The notes under the pieces were generated by a model. That model saw nothing but the letters and a program-made list of their open reading frames with translations. It was not told where the DNA came from and ran no database searches. DNA of 64,000 nt from Allacma fusca (Eukaryota; Arthropoda; Collembola; Symphypleona; Sminthuridae): NCBI GenBank assembly GCA_947179485.1, contig OX359246.1, positions 46,417,632 through 46,481,631 on the forward strand, in the 5' to 3' direction. Positions 9,703-60,455 of the stretch are shown here, in pieces (within the stretch, counting starts at the first letter, position 1; the number at the start of each line of letters is the position of its first letter). The position numbers were made by a program, and so were the translations under genes.

Positions 9703-12700
9703 TCAATGCACTCGAATTCCTCCCACTTTCCTGCACCTCTCCCGACGCTTGAGCTCCCGCACAAACGCCCGAAATACTTGCTCCGTAGTACGCTTCTCAG
9801 TAGCCTGCAATCAAAACGTGCTATAAAAAAATACTCAGAACACAAAACCAAATGCACCCCTAATAATTATGACAAAACGAGACCAAACATGGGTCCCTCA
9901 TCTATAGTAAATTTTGTGAACATTTCAAAACCCAACAATCCTCGGGAGTCGAAAAGTACTTGTAAAAATAGAAGGTCGGTTTTTAGCATAACATTTAGCG
10001 GATTTGCTTAGAGTCCGAACAACATTAACCCCTTCAGTGACATTTTTGCCAGAGTGGGGTTGTCGAATGAACCGTGGTTCGATTTTCAACCGTCTCTTAC
10101 TTTTACCCCGAGCACTTGACCTAGTCTGATTTTTAGAACTATATTTAAATTGTAAATCTTTGGGGTTAAAACTGGAGGATGAAGGTGATAGAAGTGGCTC
10201 AGTGACACTAGACGTTACCATGACCTCCTCATGGAATGTACAAATGTCCTGGGTCAGGGGATTGACTCCTCCCAAGTAATTCCTCAGGGCGAGTTTGAGC
10301 TTCCAGTTGTCTTTGAGCAGAGCTTCTCGCCTGACCTGCAACGCTGCCCTCTCCAAACTGACCCTATTGTAACGGATCCAGAATCGCTCCAAAATTGTGA
10401 ACTCTTCGATTAGCTTCTGTGCCGGGACAATCATGTTAATCTCCTCCGGTTCAGCTTCACAAGTGCAAGGATTGCATTCGCAAGTCATATCATGAACTAC
10501 GGGGTCCACATGGAGGAGATAACTCCCTGAGAGCTCAACATCGGAAATGTTCTCCATATGAGTAGTGTCAATTTTCTTATCCGACTTGATCTCATCCCCA
10601 ACTAAATTATTTAAACTCCATTTGAGCAAAAATGGATCCATTTTCTCATCCAATCTTTCACGCTTTCGACAGCGCTCAATCGAGCGGAGGAGACGCTCTC
10701 GTTGGGATATCATCTCATTCATTACCTACAAAGAACGCATTTTGGGAACTCTATTATAGCTATTTCCCTTCAAATTGGAGCTGTTTACAATGTTTACAGA
10801 TCCACAGATTTTTATGGTGTATTAGTTATAATTAGTTGTAAAATAGTAATAAATGAAACAATTACGTACGTCATGTATTGAAGTACAATTTATGGCCAGG
10901 AAACGGACGGAAGCTGAGCTCACAGAAATTAACGATCGATGCTGGGTCATTAGCTCATCGTACAAGTCTCGGTACTCCTTTTTCTTATTTCGGAGCTCCA
11001 TCAGGAAATGTTCAAGGGCTTTTTCAAACATAGACGTTTTTGAGGTCATTTGTGTGATCCCCTCCTTTTAAAATAATTGGAGTCAGTCAAACAAACCACA
11101 GAATATTGTTAATTGATATACATAGTTAATTAATTGTAAGGACACCCTTACCCGAAGGGCGTAGAGACGGCGGAACTGTGCATCGATTAAGGATGACATG
11201 ACCAAGTCCTTCTCTCGGTGGTCCAAATATTCCGAGCGCTTTGTATCGACATTCACCTGCAATCATTATTCATTTCAAATGGTATTGAAGGGGGTAATTG
11301 TAACCTTTATTTGGATTTAAATATGGAATTTATAGCTTTAAGCGACGCGCCTAAATATTGTTGGAAATTATTATTTCTTTAAAAAAAACCTTACATCATA
11401 AGCTACAAGCCGACTGTGAAGATCTTTCCACATCTCGTTCATCCGCTGATCCATCTTGGCTTTGACTATGTGAACCTCCTCGACTCCCTAATGATTACAA
11501 AGGCGAATTTAGTTATAATTTTTGACACCATTGCATTGGACGGGGAAATCTTGTTCGTTCTTTCAGTTGGATCAAAAAATCAAGTGTTTCGGAGAAAAAC
11601 TAATTATAATCTAACTTACTTTATTTCTGATCTCCTCCTCTCTCACGGCAAAATCTGCCTTGGCATCTGCGGATTGCTCTTTAAAGTGATTCTGAGTCTT
11701 GGCCATGGCGTTCCGCAAGTGTTTCAAGCTTTTGTCTTGGTATGACTGGATCCGATTCCGCTCTTCCTCCAGATGTCGAATCAGTTTGTTCCTTTCTAAG
11801 TTGTAGGCATCCCGAATTTCTTGCAAACGCTTCCGCCAGAATTCTGAATAAATATAACGTATAACGAGAAATACATTTAATTATTTTTTTCTGAGCAACC
11901 CAAAAATGTTCTTCGTAGTACAACTGATTATTATCCGTCGATACAGTTTAGCTAAAACCTCAGCATTACACTACCAATGTTAGTAGAAATATGGTTATGC
12001 AACAAAATGGACTCAAAAATAAACTGCTAGCCGGTACCCATCATTTTATCAACGTTGTACATATGACTGTCAACCGCAGCATCATAGTCCATCTGGTTCT
12101 TGTCCAAATTGTCTCGAAGATCTTTCATTAAATTGTGCTTCTTGTCAAAGGCTCGTTCAAAAGCGTTTCGCATTGCCTGCAGGAAAAAATTGAAATGGTA
12201 GTTAATGTATTGCATAATTCCGTTCACTGTTTTTTCAATAATTCCAGAAAGTTTTCTGATAGGATTAAAAACCTTGTAATCATCCATGAGCTCTTCGATT
12301 TTGAGTTTGCGAAGTCGGGGCCGCCATAAGTCCAGAAGTTTGTTTGTGTTCAGCCGAATCAACTCATGTTCTTTCTCCTTTTTGAGCTACTCAACCATAA
12401 ATGAGAAAGTTATTAAGACACCATTTTGTCAAATCTGGACAGGTTGCAAATATTTTAGCCGCCAAACCCATATAAGGAAGGAACAATATGGTCCCATGAT
12501 ATTTGAGACTGTGTGTCGTTCAGTGATCCCTGATCACGTGACCCCCGATAAATTTGTCCATTTTGTCCCGTCTCATAAAAATGTGTGCCGTTCATTACTT
12601 TACTAATGCTTGGTTTCATTATACCGTCCCTGATTATTAATTTAGTGGCATTGGAATATTTTTTACCGTCCTTCCTTTGTATGGGCAACAGGGTAAATGA

Positions 12701-50200: not shown

Positions 50201-53200
50201 ATAGAATATTACATAAGAATGAACACCTTCCCCAATCGCTAGTACGTTGAGGGGTAGAGTTTCAAAGAGTGTCAAGAGGCCGCCATCGATCCTTATGATT
50301 CATATCGTAGTGATAAGTATATTCCTCTTATATCCAAATCTACGTATGTACGTACATGCATTACCAGTACGCTCTGTGAGATATGGGGGGTTGAGTGTGG
50401 AAGATTGAACTGATAGGAAATCAAATGGTCTCTTCCATATAGCTCTACTGTAGAAGGTATGTACATGTCTTGGAAGTATATAATAATAAGGGGATTCCCT
50501 GAAAAAACATTTCATTGGGAGTTGGGACCTGACAGAGAGCTTTAACTTGATCACATTCTCAAGTGTGAGATGATGAGCCATCGAGGGAGGTCTCTTGAGC
50601 GAATCCTACAAGACTTTTCCCTCTCCGACTATTTTATTGACCTCGCCGAAATGGAAATGCGGGAGTTCATTTCCCCCCAAAATTGTACAACTTTCCCACA
50701 TTATAAATTCTACCAGTAAATTTTGTATGTAAACAAATAGAGCGTTCTTATATGAACCTACATCTTTGTATAATTACATAAAAGTCACATTTTTTGCAAC
50801 TCTTTGACTCTTTATAGACAGGAAATAATTTAAAAATTTATTGGGCCTCTCCAAGGGATTGTGTAAAAATAGAAATGATTTGTGAAAAGTTGTGGGGGGA
50901 AAAAATTCCACTTGCTTTTTTTTTCTTTTTCGGGGGAGTCCTTTGAAATACGAAGGGAATGATGAGAGAGATGGGAAGAGGATGAGCGGGAATCAAACGG
51001 TGGAATATTTATGGACAGCGATTAACATAAATATTTCAAGGATTTGGAGATGAGGTCGATAAGGGAGAATTTGATGGTCATTTCAATTGCTCCCCCACAC
51101 CAGGGCTTCTCTCCTTCCATCTGCTCCATTCAAAATGGATGAGATTTTGAGACTCGCTCTCCAATACCTACATATAATTTTATATACATATGGAGCTTGA
51201 GAGAGGAGCAGGACCTGAGAGGAGCCTGAGCTGGGGATAAATGGTCCATTGTAAATTAGAGCAAGCAGGGTCCCAGGCCGGATGGTTATTTTATGGTAAA
51301 CGAATGGACAAGTCGCGGAGGCAACATTCAGGAATATGCTAATGGTCAGAGAGGATAATATGAGTCCCGTCATACACAGACGGAGCTCCAAGTATCCCCA
51401 GGAATAATTCAATAGGACACAGTACTAGTGTGTTAAAGGCTCCTCGCTCCACTCTTTTCAAGTAGATACTTCCCATAAAGTTCACGTGGTGAGAGGGTTC
51501 CAGAAAGGAAGGAGTCAAAGTTAAGGAAATAACGAGCGGGGCAAGTGGACGGATTCCCGTGTTTTACAAGACAGTCTCGTTGTAATAGGAGTTGCATCAC
51601 AAAATCATTACTGATTTATGTCCCGAGCCATACGCAATGATAACAAATGATACTCTAGACTGAGAGTAAACTTGGTTTCTTTGTAAACTTTCTCGGGACT
51701 TGTTGTTCTTGACTTAAAAACTTTCCTCAAGTTTTTGAAGCTCCTCTCCAACCTACGATGGGTTATATATAAATTTTCTTTTTATAACGGAGCTATAGAT
51801 ATACATACGTACGTGTCTACATAATACGCAAGACCTCCAAATTTTATTCATGCATACGTATCTATACATAATTAATGTAGATACTTATACATGCGTGTGC
51901 CTCCTCGGGAAGGAACCTCTTTGGGAGAAACATAAAGTTTGGGATGATTTTGTTGCGGGTGAAATCTTATGGGACATGTTCACAACAAGGATAACCCTTG
52001 CTATTTAAATAGTTCATTATATTCCGTAAACTATGAACTTGAGGATGTATCCTATGCGGAAGGACTTCAGATGGGAGACCACACCTTATAGGTTACCAAT
52101 TTACAGGAAATCAGAACACTTTGGAGAAATTGCTCATGACATTTATTACTCATAATGACAATTTATTTTTCTCCTGCTAACAATCTATGTATCTCCAGGT
52201 CTGTATATACTGTAGTGCATCACACATGTATGTATTTATGGATAATTATATGAGCCGAGGGAATTTGAAAGCTCAGGCCTTGACGTGCCTTACTCCATGG
52301 ACAGGTCATTACTTGAGGAATATTAGTATTTATGTGTGAATGGCTCAGAGGAGAGCAGTTTGTTCTGTCAGGTCAGAGTCAAGTCAGGACACTTTATGTG
52401 ATGTCACATTTTACGGGAGGACGCCAAATGGAGAGCAAACAAAGGTCTTAAATCAAGTTCAGGATTGACAAGTCGTACTTGGGAATCTTGGGGGAGGAAT
52501 TGCTATAATAAATAAATTTCCTGTGCATACACATAATTATACATATCTACAATCTACATATATACATAATTGGAGTATATGCAAATACAAGGAGTGTATT
52601 ATTATTTCCATCCTTATGACATAAAATACAGTGTGAGTCACTGTGTGTGGTAATAATGTTGTGGTCATTTGTGTAGATATTTGGAGCAAACTGTGATAAC
52701 TCATGGCTTAACCTAAAACTAATATCTAAGTTTGTGTACACCTTGTGTTATAATTAATCATGTGTACAATCACAAAGTATAACTGTTGTTTAAGTTCATG
52801 CACTTATCACTTCGTGTAAGTGTGACTCATCTATTCTCTTGGAACTGAGCATTAGTCAACAAGTAACCCTTTACTCTGATGTGCTCCCTTAGGTCCGCAC
52901 CTTTCACTCCTTTCCGTATTTATATCGTGTATCACAAAATACTAGATAGTTCTTCTCCGGATCGTCACTCTGTCAGTTTGCTCTCTTAATATTTTACATT
53001 AAACTATTGAATCTTAAAGCCTAACCAGCTTTGTCAAAGATCCATTTATTTGCATATACTCCATAGGAGTATTTCATCACATGGTAGCAGAGCGTGGTTT
53101 CTGTAAGCTTCAAGGTATCTAGGGAAAAGTTGCACAGCTAGGATAAATTCCAGAAAGCGGTAAAGTGCTACTTCTAGTGGAAGTTTACAACGAACATCTT

Positions 53201-56200
53201 CAGATTATTGTGAAAAATTTTAAAGGTTACAATATAATAGTTTTGTGAAGAGGGGAGTAAAATGGCTCCTAAAAGTGACGCAGTGGAGAAATTGGTGGGG
53301 AGCAACTACCCTACCTGGAGATTCCAAATATCTCTAGTGTTAGAATCGGCGGAGTTATTCGACATTGTTGATGGAACCATCAAAATTCCTGAAGACGAAG
53401 GTGCCAAAAAGTCATGGAAGAAAAAGGATCTGCAAGCAAGGTCCCTCATAGCTCCAACCCTCGATTCTCGTCAGATCAGTCATGTTGCAAATTGTACAAC
53501 CTCTAACCAAATGTGGACCAGACTCCAAAGCGCGTTCTCGGATTCTAGCCGGCTTAACAAACAGCTAACGCTAATGCGATTCTACTCTTACAGTATGACA
53601 GAAGAGCAGGATCCAGTTTCAGGTATGCATGACATTGAAGAATTGGTTCAAGCTCTGAGAGATATGGGATCTAAACTCGATGAAGAAGATGTCATTGCAA
53701 AAATTGTGGCATCTTTGCCGAATGGATATGACAACTTTAAAACAGCGTGGGACAGCGTTCAACCTGAACATCAGACGAGGGAAACATTGCTGGCCAGACT
53801 CAAGAAGGAAGTCATGAGAAGAAACTCAAAGTTTGGGAAACCAGAGGAGGTTGAATCGTCAGTTGCATACAGTGCAGTTGCTGGCAAATCCAAATTTGAG
53901 AAGAAAAAATATCAAGACCCAAAGTCAAGAAAATGCTTCTATTGTGACAAACCCGGGCATATTAAACGGGATTGCAGAAAACGACAGCGGGATCAACAGA
54001 ATACCAACAAGGATACTAAGAAAGGTGGTGAGTCAAATAATAACTTTGCATTCTCACTACACGTTGAAGACCATGACAGCGACAGTGATGTGGTTTTTGC
54101 AAATTCCGCATCATCAGACTGTAGTCCTGACGAATGGATTAGCGACTCGGGTGCCACGCGTCATGTTTGCGGAAACAAAGAATGGTTTGTTAACATTGAA
54201 CAATTTAGTGGTAATGCTCCATCTGTTATTATGGCTGACAACAAGAAGACTAGGGCTGTTGGTATTGGACAAATTAGACTTGAAGCATTTATCAGTGGCA
54301 AGTGGTGTAAGTGTACCATAAGTGATGTGCTCTACGTACCCGGAGCGGCCAACCTCTTCTCCGAGCCAGTTATGGACAGAAAGAAGTATACAATTATACG
54401 GAAAAATGGTGAAACCAAGTACTCCAAACAAAACGGGAAACCTGGACCGGAAGCTACATTGACAAACAGAGGTTATATCCTGAAATTTCGTCCCATCGAA
54501 GAAACGGTACATGCTCAACTCAGCAAATTTCTTCCGAGTAACAAATGTTCAAAACTGTGGCATCAGAGACTCTCCCACATAAACCACCGGTACATCCTCA
54601 ACACAGCAAGGAAGGAAGCCGTGGATGGTCTGGATCTCAATGAGGTAAAGGAAAAATTTGAATGTCTCGAGTGTATAGCTGGAAAGATGACTCGGGGAAG
54701 TTTTCCAAGAACGACCTCTGAATGCAATTTTCAACCAGGCGAAAGGATATATGCTGACTTGGCAGGACCAATGCCAACTCCCTCAATAGGGGGTGCGGTG
54801 TATTTTCTCCTCCTTAAGGACCATGCCACAGGGTATAGATGTGCATATTTTTTAAAACACAAGAGTGAAACGTCTGGGTACATCAAGACATTCATCGCAT
54901 TACTTGAAAATCAAACGTCTAGAACAGTTAAGTTTTTTGCAAGCGACTGTGGAACTGAATTCATAAATCGTGACTTCAAGACATTTCTCAATGAGAAGGG
55001 TGTGATCATGGAAACCTCAGCCCCGTACTGCCCTGAAAGCAATGGAAGAATAGAGCGAGAGATAAGGACCATTAAGGACTCTGCCAGAACAATCCTTCTA
55101 GCAGCAGAACTTCCGGATTACTTGTGGGCAGAAGCTGTTGCAACGGTAGTCTACATTCACAACAGAGTTTTGGATCATCAAAGTCCACAACGGACGGCGT
55201 ACGAAAGCATTTTTGGTAAGAAACCGTCTCTATCACATATTCGCATCTTTGGCTGCACCGCATTTGCACATACACCAAAATCAAAGAGATCCGTGTGGGA
55301 AGCCAAAGGACTGTCCTACAAACTTGTTGGGTACTCTGTCAAAAATCACACGTATCGCCTATGGGATGGAAAGCACAAGGTCATCGAAGCTCACAATGTT
55401 AAGTTCTACGAAGAACAGCCAGATGTCGTAATGGTTCCCAGAAACATATCTGAGGTTAAATCCAAGGAAGCCCAAACATGTCCGGAAATTTCAAGTGCCA
55501 CAACGAAATCCAATCGTCGTATTATACCTTTAACCCCTGAAGTAAATTGTTCACCACCACTATTCAACGAGGAAGTTGATGCTGACTCAGACTGGATCGC
55601 TGAGGACGAAGAAATTCAACCAGTTCCTACCCGAACGGCTCCACTGGTTCTCGACGCTCCAGAACCAGCACCTATGAATCTCAGGAACCAACAGTGTCAA
55701 GAAGTGGTCATCTCAACCCCACGTGGACAGTTCAAGGCTCAAGTCCCGTTGGATCAAACTACGCAAATAAAATTACCGCGGGAACTCAGGCCAGGGAAGA
55801 ACTCCTCCTTTGTTCCCAAGATTTTATTCAACCGTTTGAGAAGCGGACATCCAACAACGGATAGCACAAAACAAGATGAATTTGCAATGGCACTTCAACT
55901 CATTAACGAGCCAACAACATACAAACAAGCTCTGGAAGCACCTGATTGCCAGGAGTGGAAACAAGCAATTGCAGAAGAGTTTAAAAGCCACGAGGAAAAT
56001 CAATCATGGGAAGTCGTGGATAGGCCCGAAGGAACTAAACTTCTTGATACAAAATGGGTGTTTAAGGTAAAGCGCAATACCGACGGCTCCATAGCTCGCT
56101 ATAAAGCACGACTGGTGATTAGAGGATACAAGCAAGAGGAAGGTGTCGATTTTTTTGAAACCTTTGCCTCTGTTTGTCGGTACGAAACAATCCGGATGTT

Positions 56201-59200
56201 ATTATGTCTAGCTGCCTGTCAAGGATGGTTCATGTACCAATTTGACGTAAAAACGGCGTTTTTACATGGTGATCTCCAAGAAGAAATATTCGCCAAGCTA
56301 CCTGAAGGGTACTCAATCCATGGAAATGGTAAAGTGCTGAGATTGTTAAAAAGCATTTACGGACTAAAGCAGAGTCCTCGCTGCTGGAGCGAGAAATTTG
56401 GCAATTTCTTAACTGATTCTTTTAACCTAAAGCGATCTAATTCTGATCCAAGTGTATTCATTGGATCTAGAAGCAAGAGCATAATAATTGTGGCTATGTA
56501 TGTAGATGACGGTTTAGTGTTTTCATCAAGTCGCGAATGCATTGTCTCATTGATGAAGAAAATTCAGAGTGAATACGATATTACTCATGGTCTACCTTCC
56601 AGTTATGTTGGAATCGACATCAGCAGGGATGATAGTGGTACAATAACACTGTCCCAGAACAAGTACATTAATGATCTTCTAGACCGTTTTAAGATGCAAG
56701 AGTGCAACCCGTCATCAGTCCCACTTCAACCATACACAGAATTGGTGGCTTCGAACGAATGTGATCCTAATATCCCTTACCGTCAATTAATAGGAGCCCT
56801 TCTATTCCTTGCCAAATGCACTAGGCCTGACATATCTTTTTGTGTGTCCCGACTGTCCCAATTTTTGTCCGGCTATGACGACAGTCATTGGAAGGCAGCA
56901 AAAGGGGTTCTTCGCTACCTCAAGGGTACCCTAGACTTTGGCCTAAAGTATCAATCTGGAGGGGTTCCCACCATGGAGACTTTCACAGACTCGGATCATG
57001 CAGGATGTAAGATTGACCGGAAATCTGTAAGTGGAGTTGCTGTTTTGCTTAATAATGGACTAATCAGCTGGAGCAGTCAGAAACAATCATGTGTGGCACT
57101 ATCATCCACTGAAGCTGAGTATGTTGCGTTGGCTTCCGGCGCTAAAGAAACAATATGGTTACGGAATTTAATGCAAGAATTAGGATTTCAGAAAGGACTT
57201 CCTACTCCAGTCTATGTAGACAACCAGTCGGCAATAAAACTAGTTCGGAACCCGGAAATGCATTCCAGAACTAAACATATTGACACAAGGTTCCACTACA
57301 TCCGGGAGCTTGTTGCAAAAAATGAGGTTGAAGTTCAATATGTCAATACAGCATCTCAGATCGCTGATGGGCTAACAAAGCCTCTTATCAAGGGAAAGCT
57401 CGAGGTCAACCGATCACAACTTGGAATTGAAAAACTTACCCCGAAGACAAAACCTAGTACAGCACCGTCACCATGGTTTTTCATCTGCCTACTGTATTTT
57501 TTCGTCATTGCAGCTTCTGGAAATGCTGGAACACCTGTTGCTCCAGTCATATGGAGGAAATCGGACACACCTGTAACTGTGGGTCATCATCAGGTTCATC
57601 TAATGGTGAACTTCATTAACCCCTGCCAAGCTATTTCCAATGAGACTGTGCATAACGACCTAACAAATTCAGCGCGTGCGAAATGTGATGAAGTATATCA
57701 GACAATGTTCCTGGACGAAATTCAAAGAATGTGCCCTAAGAAATCGTGGACGTCTGTAAATGTCAGACAAAAACGGTTCATTCCCCTAATTATTGGCGTA
57801 ATTGTGGTAATAGTGATTGCTAGTGCAGGTTTAAGTATAGCAGCGGTCACAATAGCAGTTACGAACAAGGATAAACTCGATCAAGTTGAAGAAAGGATGC
57901 AGCTGCAAGCAAACATGCTCAATGGTATGGAGAAACAAGTGAAACACAACCATGAGCTCATACAAAACTTGACTCTAAAATTTAACACTGCTATAGATAA
58001 ACTATCCTATTTACAAGATGACCATAACGAGATGAAGGGAAAGTTAATAGGAACTAATTATGTCATCTCTTATGTCACGAGTAATTTACTTTTAGCCAAA
58101 TCAGTGATTGTTGAAGCCAATAGGCAGTGGAAGCAACATAGAGTCCATGCAGCACTTCTTGACTATTTTAACTTTACACTTCCTTGTGGCGAAAGTTGCC
58201 CCATACACCTTGCCCGCGCTCAGTCTTGTCGTGTATCCGAAAATGGCGAAAAACTGTACATGGACTTCGCGGCTCCAATGATCAGCTCTGACTTGACTGT
58301 TGTTGAAGCCGATGCATTTCAACTCATGCTCCGATCCAAGAATCAAACGTGTACGATCAAATACACTGGGCCTGAAAAGGCCATTCTGTCGGAAACTAAT
58401 CAATGTGTTTATTCTATAAATGTTAGACATCAAGTAAGACATGACCTAATTCTAGCTCCAACTGGAGGTTGCCTTCCAAAGGATCCAACTATTACCGGGA
58501 CCAAACACTTTGTGGTGGATGATTGCCGAATGACCAAACCACTGGATGAGCGAAACTTCGTCCAAATAAAACCCCACGACAAGGAATACTATGTCTATTG
58601 TCCCGGGTCTAATTTAACCGTTGAAGGACTTCAGCGCCAGTGCCCCGAAGACGTATTTACCTTGCCCCTGAACACAAATTTCAAGATTAACGAATTGGAA
58701 TTCGTTGGCTCAAGGATTAGCCTAGTGCACACCGAAACCTTGGATCCAGTTCTCACAATGAGAACCAACTGGCACATTCAGCCTAACGTCAACTGGTCAT
58801 CCCTTAAGACGGAGATGAAAGCAGATGATTTTCAGGAACTGCATATTTCGGACAGTTTTCATTATGTCAATAACTATTGGTCTACAATCAGTCTTACCCT
58901 AATAACACTTGTTTTGATTCTTGTAATTGTAGTACTTTATGTTAAATCAAATCGTTCTCCCCAAACTATCTCTGTAATTGCCCGACCAATGACGAATATG
59001 ATTGAGATGTCTCCTATAAATCAACCATAAGCCACTCAATTCATAATATTGATTCGGATATCGTTTGTCTAGGATGTAATTAACTAATATTGTCTTTTAT
59101 GTTTTTGTTTCTAGTTTTGTTTTTGTAGCTATCTTGTTACATGTTTTGCAATATGACTTACGTTCAGTAGATTATACTTCGAGATTGAGGGAAAGTGTGA

Positions 59201-60455
59201 TAACTCATGGCTTAACCTAAAACTAATATCTAAGTTTGTGTACACCTTGTGTTATAATTAATCATGTGTACAATCACAAAGTATAACTGTTGTTTAAGTT
59301 CATGCACTTATCACTTCGTGTAAGTGTGACTCATCTATTCTCTTGGAACTGAGCATTAGTCAACAAGTAACCCTTTACTCTGATGTGCTCCCTTAGGTCC
59401 GCACCTTTCACTCCTTTCCGTATTTATATCGTGTATCACAAAATACTAGATAGTTCTTCTCCGGATCGTCACTCTGTCAGTTTGCTCTCTTAATATTTTA
59501 CATTAAACTATTGAATCTTAAAGCCTAACCAGCTTTGTCAAAGATCCATTTATTTGCATATACTCCATAGGAGTATTTCATCACACAAACCGGTCATTCA
59601 ACTCTAGGAATAGACAGATGCTCTTTTCACAATTATTTTTTATTTTGGGTGCTATTGTGTGTTGGTCATATTTGGTATTTTCGTAGGAAAAAATAATAAG
59701 AAGAATTCTGGACAAATTTGTGAAAATACTTGTTGATTATGTTTGTATATTGACATAGATGGGATTTAAATGGATTTAAATTCCTGTGAAGTCTTTAATT
59801 AAATTTTTCATTTAAATCCCATCCCCGTAAAAATTTTAAATCGATAAGAAACGGGGGATGGACAAAAACTGAGGGAAGTTTATTTCCGGGGCTAGGAAAC
59901 TGACAAATTAATATTGTTGATATGTTGATGTTTGGAGGGCTCCAATGATTTCTCATGTTAAATGAACCATCCAGGCGTGGAAAGGAAAAGTAACATCATA
60001 AAAATCCGCAAATTGCTCGAGTTTGTTCCCGACATGATGATCCCGAGGGGAAGCTTTATGAAATCAGCGTGGAAATTAAAATTGATAAGAAATTATTACA
60101 GCCCGCTTGTAAAATACCCAGGCCTAGCTGACAGGAGTTATGAGTCCATACTTTATGGCTCTGCAGACTCTCAGTCTCTAAACAAACATTTTATTAGATG
60201 AGGATAGAGATGAAGAGCCGTTATTTTCCTACAGGCTTTGCCAGGAAAACATGACTGTACAGGAAAAGATTGGAAATAATAATTGTTTGTTGATTTTGTA
60301 TTGCAGATGCAATCGAAGAGCACGATTTACTCCAAGCCATTCGGGTTCCATTTGAAGACCCCAAAAAACAGTACTTTGAGTCTGGCTCGGATGGATTTCC
60401 AGCCTACGGGTTGAAGGAAGGAGCAGACATAAAATCGCATTATAGGTAATGTCAT

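Follow-up and report, generated by a model that had tools for sequence, protein, structure and literature searches.

Plant Sireviruses (SIRE1) are copia-superfamily elements with an envelope (env)-like region after pol, which is expressed as a C-terminal extension by stop readthrough. Errantiviruses have the pol order of Ty3/gypsy elements, and their env is usually made from spliced RNA, as is usual in retroviruses and gypsy elements. Several reports document env capture by long terminal repeat (LTR) elements of animals, namely by gypsy-type, BEL, and retroviral lineages (PMC13172572, PMC12440569, PMC12992720, PMC9040795, PMC5408684). Here, we describe an element at positions 52692 to 59585 of a 64,000-nucleotide stretch (hereafter, the window; contig OX359246.1, positions 46,417,632 to 46,481,631) from the genome of the globular springtail Allacma fusca, a host for which the initial annotation had taken a caligid copepod. 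The element belongs to the copia class and carries an envelope-like domain in frame with its pol.

In superfamily, the nearest described systems are the Sireviruses; the element studied here differs from them in its springtail host, in having no stop at all, and in a layout that matches viral fusion (F) proteins. In host, the nearest are the errantiviruses, which have a Ty3/gypsy pol and env as a third open reading frame (ORF), whereas the springtail element has a copia pol and one frame. Membership in the errantiviruses (Metaviridae) was rejected since integrase (IN) precedes reverse transcriptase (RT) and does not follow RNase H as in Ty3/gypsy. Retroviridae, too, have gag, pol, and env between LTRs, though these form one frame here, and their RT comes before IN, whereas IN comes first here. 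Insect endogenous retroviruses and errantiviruses resemble our element, in the accessible part of PMC12992720, in their F-type env with furin site, fusion peptide, anchor, and conserved cysteines, and in their hexapod hosts. In env type, the nearest is TelKA of bdelloid rotifers, an invertebrate retrovirus-like LTR element whose env-like protein is, according to its authors, most similar to paramyxovirus class I F proteins (PMC5408684); there, env is an additional ORF3 and the accessible text does not call the element copia, whereas here env extends, in frame, a copia pol in which IN precedes RT. The same paper holds it still unclear if plant elements encode an envelope-like protein. BEL/pao elements and Anakin are LTR elements with a chuvirus-type envelope gene but are non-copia and have a class III glycoprotein, as far as the accessible parts of PMC13172572 and PMC12440569 go. 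Lokiretroviruses have an Env similar to Mononegavirales fusion glycoproteins but are non-copia elements, described in PMC9040795 as having a dual RNase H and forming the sister lineage of retroviruses. In these sources, so far as accessible, none of TelKA, the Sireviruses, or the errantiviruses joins an animal copia pol to a fused F-like env. A literature search, with Repbase, preprints, and subscription journals outside its scope, found no published animal copia env.

The element consists of one stop-free frame of 1922 amino acids between two LTRs of 390 bp each, which have TG...CA ends and show no differences (Table 1). The flanking sequences, GAGCAAAC before the 5′ LTR and CAAACCGG after the 3′ LTR, give a 5-bp target-site duplication (TSD), CAAAC. 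Immediately 3′ of the 5′ LTR lies TGGTAGCAGAGC, a putative primer binding site that we take to resemble the initiator tRNA-Met. When the polyprotein was cut into separate pieces and run against Pfam, matches were obtained in copia order: Retrotran_gag_2 (E = 3.7e-35), zf-CCHC, Pol_BBD, gag_pre-integrs, rve, SH3_retrovirus, and RVT_2 (2.9e-63). All catalytic motifs looked for were found (CCHC, DSGA, HHCC, D-D35-E, YVDD, DSDHA, and STEAEY). The gag-protease-IN-RT-RNase H order, RVT_2-type RT, LTR ends, and length of the TSD are those of Ty1/copia elements (Pseudoviridae). The window element has copia anatomy and an in-frame env and is probably a recently inserted, intact Ty1/copia member; its copia class, proposed by the initial annotation, is borne out by domain order, catalytic motifs, and the RT trees described below.

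The env piece comprises residues 1376 to 1922, 547 codons without a stop. Hydrophobic peaks are located at residues 1400 to 1418, 1506 to 1524, and 1876 to 1894; RQKR occupies residues 1502 to 1505, and a strongly hydrophobic segment begins right after it. There are eight N-glycosylation motifs, six of which lie between the signal segment and the anchor. The layout is that of class I F proteins: a signal, a furin-type site, a hydrophobic segment next to it, a heptad helix, and a C-terminal anchor. R-x-K-R is present at the corresponding place in all five further A. fusca families fetched, in one of them (L055) inside RHLRAKR. The F fold was found in predicted models, which are of moderate confidence, and env is thus predicted to have a class I F-like fold. 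With one frame, an F-type layout, and a predicted structure that matches viral glycoproteins, the in-frame envelope-like domain of the initial annotation is upheld.

Pfam returned no family at cut-off for the C-terminal 550 amino acids or env, only subthreshold matches. PDB sequence searches with env gave generic coiled coils and F proteins, with no significant F match (E = 0.3 in one search and 0.06 to 0.4 in another); the best match in one search was a phage tail needle (E = 0.0029), and another yielded one chance match only. Of two scans of IMG/VR for env relatives, one gave no pattern match and the other gave 25, none of which was confirmed. The lack of a significant glycoprotein sequence match and the only moderate structure models would fit an accessory domain that is anchored in the membrane but takes no part in fusion, or a domain that resembles F proteins by structural coincidence. 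We consider this improbable, as the matches listed in PDB fold searches are F proteins only and as the features, from signal through R-x-K-R, hydrophobic segment, heptad helix, and cysteines to anchor, stand in the order of F proteins.

A second copy, on contig C77, has flanks that match nothing in the window, its own TSD (AATCG), broken frames, the identical TGGTAGCAGAGC motif, and LTRs identical except for a 2-base indel. Between the two copies, env differs by 24 synonymous and 8 nonsynonymous changes, with synonymous (dS) and nonsynonymous (dN) divergences of 0.069 and 0.006; the synonymous excess is significant against the site fraction (one-sided binomial P = 3e-10). The corresponding synonymous/nonsynonymous counts are 15/7 for IN, 11/6 for gag, 4/2 for RNase H, and 3/3 for RT. 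Env is under purifying selection.

The genome of A. fusca contains many related copies. Of 283 candidates found with env, 79 were scored as matches, with identities of 31 to 100%, and of 293 found with RT–RNase H, 92 were scored; 28 of the env matches and 51 of the RT–RNase H matches, counted by eye, lie in stop-free frames of at least 1,900 codons. The pairing of the two sets covered all 54 RT–RNase H rows with 52% identity or more and, on the env side, the first 58 of 79 rows. A scored env match was located 0 to 329 bases downstream in 46 of the 54 rows. Reading the DNA downstream of the remaining eight revealed an encoded env in three of three and three of five; in both env-less copies the RT match already ends short of RNase H. 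Overall, env follows pol in 52 of 54 copies, inside the LTRs, and chance capture of a host gene beside one copia copy was therefore rejected. We give that explanation practically no credence, the same domain following pol also in the Folsomia candida protein P0008 and in two further proteins, P0007 and P0013.

RT–RNase H and env lie in one open stretch in all five further loci fetched (L054 to L058). Another family, with 44 to 45% RT identity, is represented by 26 matches of equal or near-equal score in frames of ~2,146 codons on all six chromosome-size contigs; the one copy read downstream, L059, encodes env. Full anatomy was read in two elements, that of the window and L013 of family 2, whose env is 53% identical to the window's. 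L013 has one 1946-codon frame and 608-bp LTRs without differences, between GTGGT repeats. Among 10 further copies sampled, 7 have a 5-bp TSD, 2 neighbors share one LTR, and 1 is without TSD; the copies on C10 and C12 share a flank and may represent one duplicated segment. The elements form a many-family, probably recently active lineage in which the fusion recurs across families, so that the fusion is not confined to one copy, a prospect that the initial annotation had allowed for. The 547 stop-free codons, the recurrence of the fusion in many families, and the synonymous excess in env together indicate that the domain is more than a chance product.

Several features of the genomic setting were also observed. 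At C8:51155291-51169652 (G000), two family-2 copies stand in tandem with one common LTR and outer flanks that are both TACTA. Family-2 elements occur inside satellite arrays of ~130 to 150 bases (L013, 1 to 2784; L010, 5620 to 6477), and family-2 LTRs contain 30-base tandem repeats. Many copies cluster on C1 at ~22.6 to 23.0 Mb and on C8 at ~50.6 to 51.2 Mb, which may reflect targeting of satellite DNA.

Protein searches with the env piece returned 6 and then 11 proteins, including two A. fusca records and ENA/JGI entries. Protein P0003, assigned to A. fusca by its source, is 99.6% identical over 544 amino acids to locus L054, in agreement with the springtail host. In F. candida, LOC118438167 (P0008) has a copia integrase SH3 domain followed by RNase H and env, while in P0007 and P0013 RT–RNase H continues into env, P0013 being broken off within it. 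The gene model P0005 joins RNase H and env of a near-identical copy to a collagen-like protein (collagen assigned by eye); the fusion with collagen is probably an error of gene prediction, but could reflect a chimeric transcript.

The nearest pol homologs all have copia-type domains (120 listed of at least 1212). A first pol tree contained 122 rows, that is, the 120 listed homologs, P0007, and the window; P0002, P0003, P0005, and P0008, being too short or rearranged, are absent from it. Later RT trees contained 65 rows and, with five A. fusca families added, 85 rows. In the 65-row tree, six env-bearing rows fall inside a ten-row clade with bootstrap and Shimodaira-Hasegawa-like approximate likelihood ratio test (SH-aLRT) values of 100 each; among the six is P0018, which ends 39 residues past RNase H and was scored env-bearing from its linker. 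The other four rows of the clade are cut before the env position; as they are interspersed, the six env-labeled rows alone need four changes. Rows outside the clade that reach the RNase H end break off 3 to 52 residues later, at a stop codon or contig end. The 85-row tree has a 13-row clade (SH-aLRT 96), with the long-branched pair L057/L058 nearby. Distances in env rise with those in pol (Mantel r = 0.715, P = 0.0008, nine rows). The simplest reading of these relationships would be one env capture followed by co-descent; env swaps between families are possible.

No stop is present anywhere in the frame, and in the window's family the stretch from RNase H to the signal segment lacks Met; because of this, env would be made as the tail of the polyprotein. 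The same stretch is free of Met in family 3, and the hydrophobic segment ends, in our own reading, in small residues, as signal peptides do. The simplest model would be a Gag-Pol-Env polyprotein with an internal signal peptide, processed by signal peptidase and then furin. The internal signal segment would target the tail to the endoplasmic reticulum, signal peptidase would free env, and furin cleavage would yield two subunits, the N-terminal one small and F2-like, the anchored one large and F1-like. Env trimers could then fuse membranes, allowing particles to pass between cells (e.g., from soma to germline) or, rarely, between hosts. The env gene itself would have been acquired by an ancestor from an enveloped virus with an F-type glycoprotein.

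Beyond the points conceded above for the fold, the following observations weigh against this account. The 13-row clade and the pair L057/L058, 15 rows in all, form one side of a branch with a support of only 41, and the env of L056 is more distant than its pol predicts. Family 2 has a Met at the RNase H–env border. A splice scan, based on a simple consensus and run with no control, found donors and acceptors of the same phase at similar positions in families 1 (the window's) and 2: donors 53623 and 54028 with acceptor 56794 in family 1, and donor 3833 with acceptor 7220 in L013. Counted from where the RT piece begins, the acceptors lie at 796 and 811 bases, nearly the same place, which makes a splice that preserves the frame possible. 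Env might then be translated, in the manner of retroviruses and errantiviruses, from a spliced subgenomic RNA with initiation at the AUG of gag or of a leader, the open pol-env frame being incidental or otherwise kept. The splice candidates and the border Met make such splicing slightly more probable and the polyprotein slightly less so. We nevertheless regard splicing as doubtful: the acceptors lie ~0.6 kb before env, inside RT–RNase H, so that the product would still contain RNase H; the candidates come from an uncontrolled scan; and the unbroken frame is kept in families only ~30 to 53% alike in env.

Table 1. Features of the copia-class element in window coordinates.
Feature	Position	Strand	Basis
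TSD CAAAC, left copy	52687..52691	.	
5′ LTR, 390 bp, TG...CA	52692..53081	+	
Putative primer binding site TGGTAGCAGAGC...	53082..53097	+	
Gag-Pol-Env single open frame, 1922 codons	53262..59030	+	
Copia-type gag (Retrotran_gag_2)	53334..53828	+	Pfam
CCHC zinc knuckle	53934..53975	+	Pfam + motif
Protease region (Pol_BBD), DSGA	54135..54389	+	Pfam + motif
IN: HHCC, D-D35-E core, SH3-like domain	54537..55421	+	Pfam + motifs
RT (RVT_2), YVDD	55998..56729	+	Pfam + motif
RNase H, DSDHA + STEAEY; RVT_3 under Pfam cut-off	56988..57386	+	Motifs
Envelope-like protein continuing the pol frame; predicted structure class I F-like	57387..59027	+	
Internal signal-peptide-like hydrophobic segment	57459..57515	+	
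Furin-type motif RQKR	57765..57776	+	
Fusion-peptide-like hydrophobic segment, adjoining RQKR	57777..57833	+	
Heptad region/long predicted helix	57882..58037	+	
C-terminal membrane anchor	58887..58943	+	
Purine-rich tract 5′ of 3′ LTR	59181..59195	+	
3′ LTR	59196..59585	+	
TSD CAAAC, right copy	59586..59590	.	

Elsewhere in the window, a 265–amino acid ORF on the minus strand (9925 to 10722) has a weak, below-cut-off match to NYD-SP28_assoc, a sperm tail C-terminal domain (E = 0.00038), and may be an exon belonging to a gene for the dynein regulatory complex. An Rfam search of the window gave no match.

Taken as a whole, the element is likely an intact member of a large Gag-Pol-Env copia lineage whose env is an F-like, virus-derived polyprotein tail. 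The initial annotation had also proposed a retrovirus-like lineage of independent origin. Domain order, the RT trees, the predicted structure, and the many genomic copies uphold the idea of a retrovirus-like lineage, and the copia-type pol supports its independent origin, although the most diverged env families are only weakly joined to the main RT clade. On balance, we lean toward the view that Collembola host old, diverse, and recently active enveloped Pseudoviridae, a separate retrovirus-like origin within copia, in which a class I F protein gained from an enveloped virus is kept as a Gag-Pol-Env tail and freed through an internal signal peptide, a strategy unlike that of retroviruses and errantiviruses. 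A conserved F-like env in an animal copia lineage would extend env capture to one more superfamily and would offer an independent case in which to study how retrotransposons become viruses. A question of expression arises as well, that of how the glycoprotein is freed when it forms the tail of Gag-Pol; with so many families and near-identical copies available in a single chromosome-level genome, it is directly testable. Copia-class elements may have turned virus-like in animals independently of the known retroviruses.
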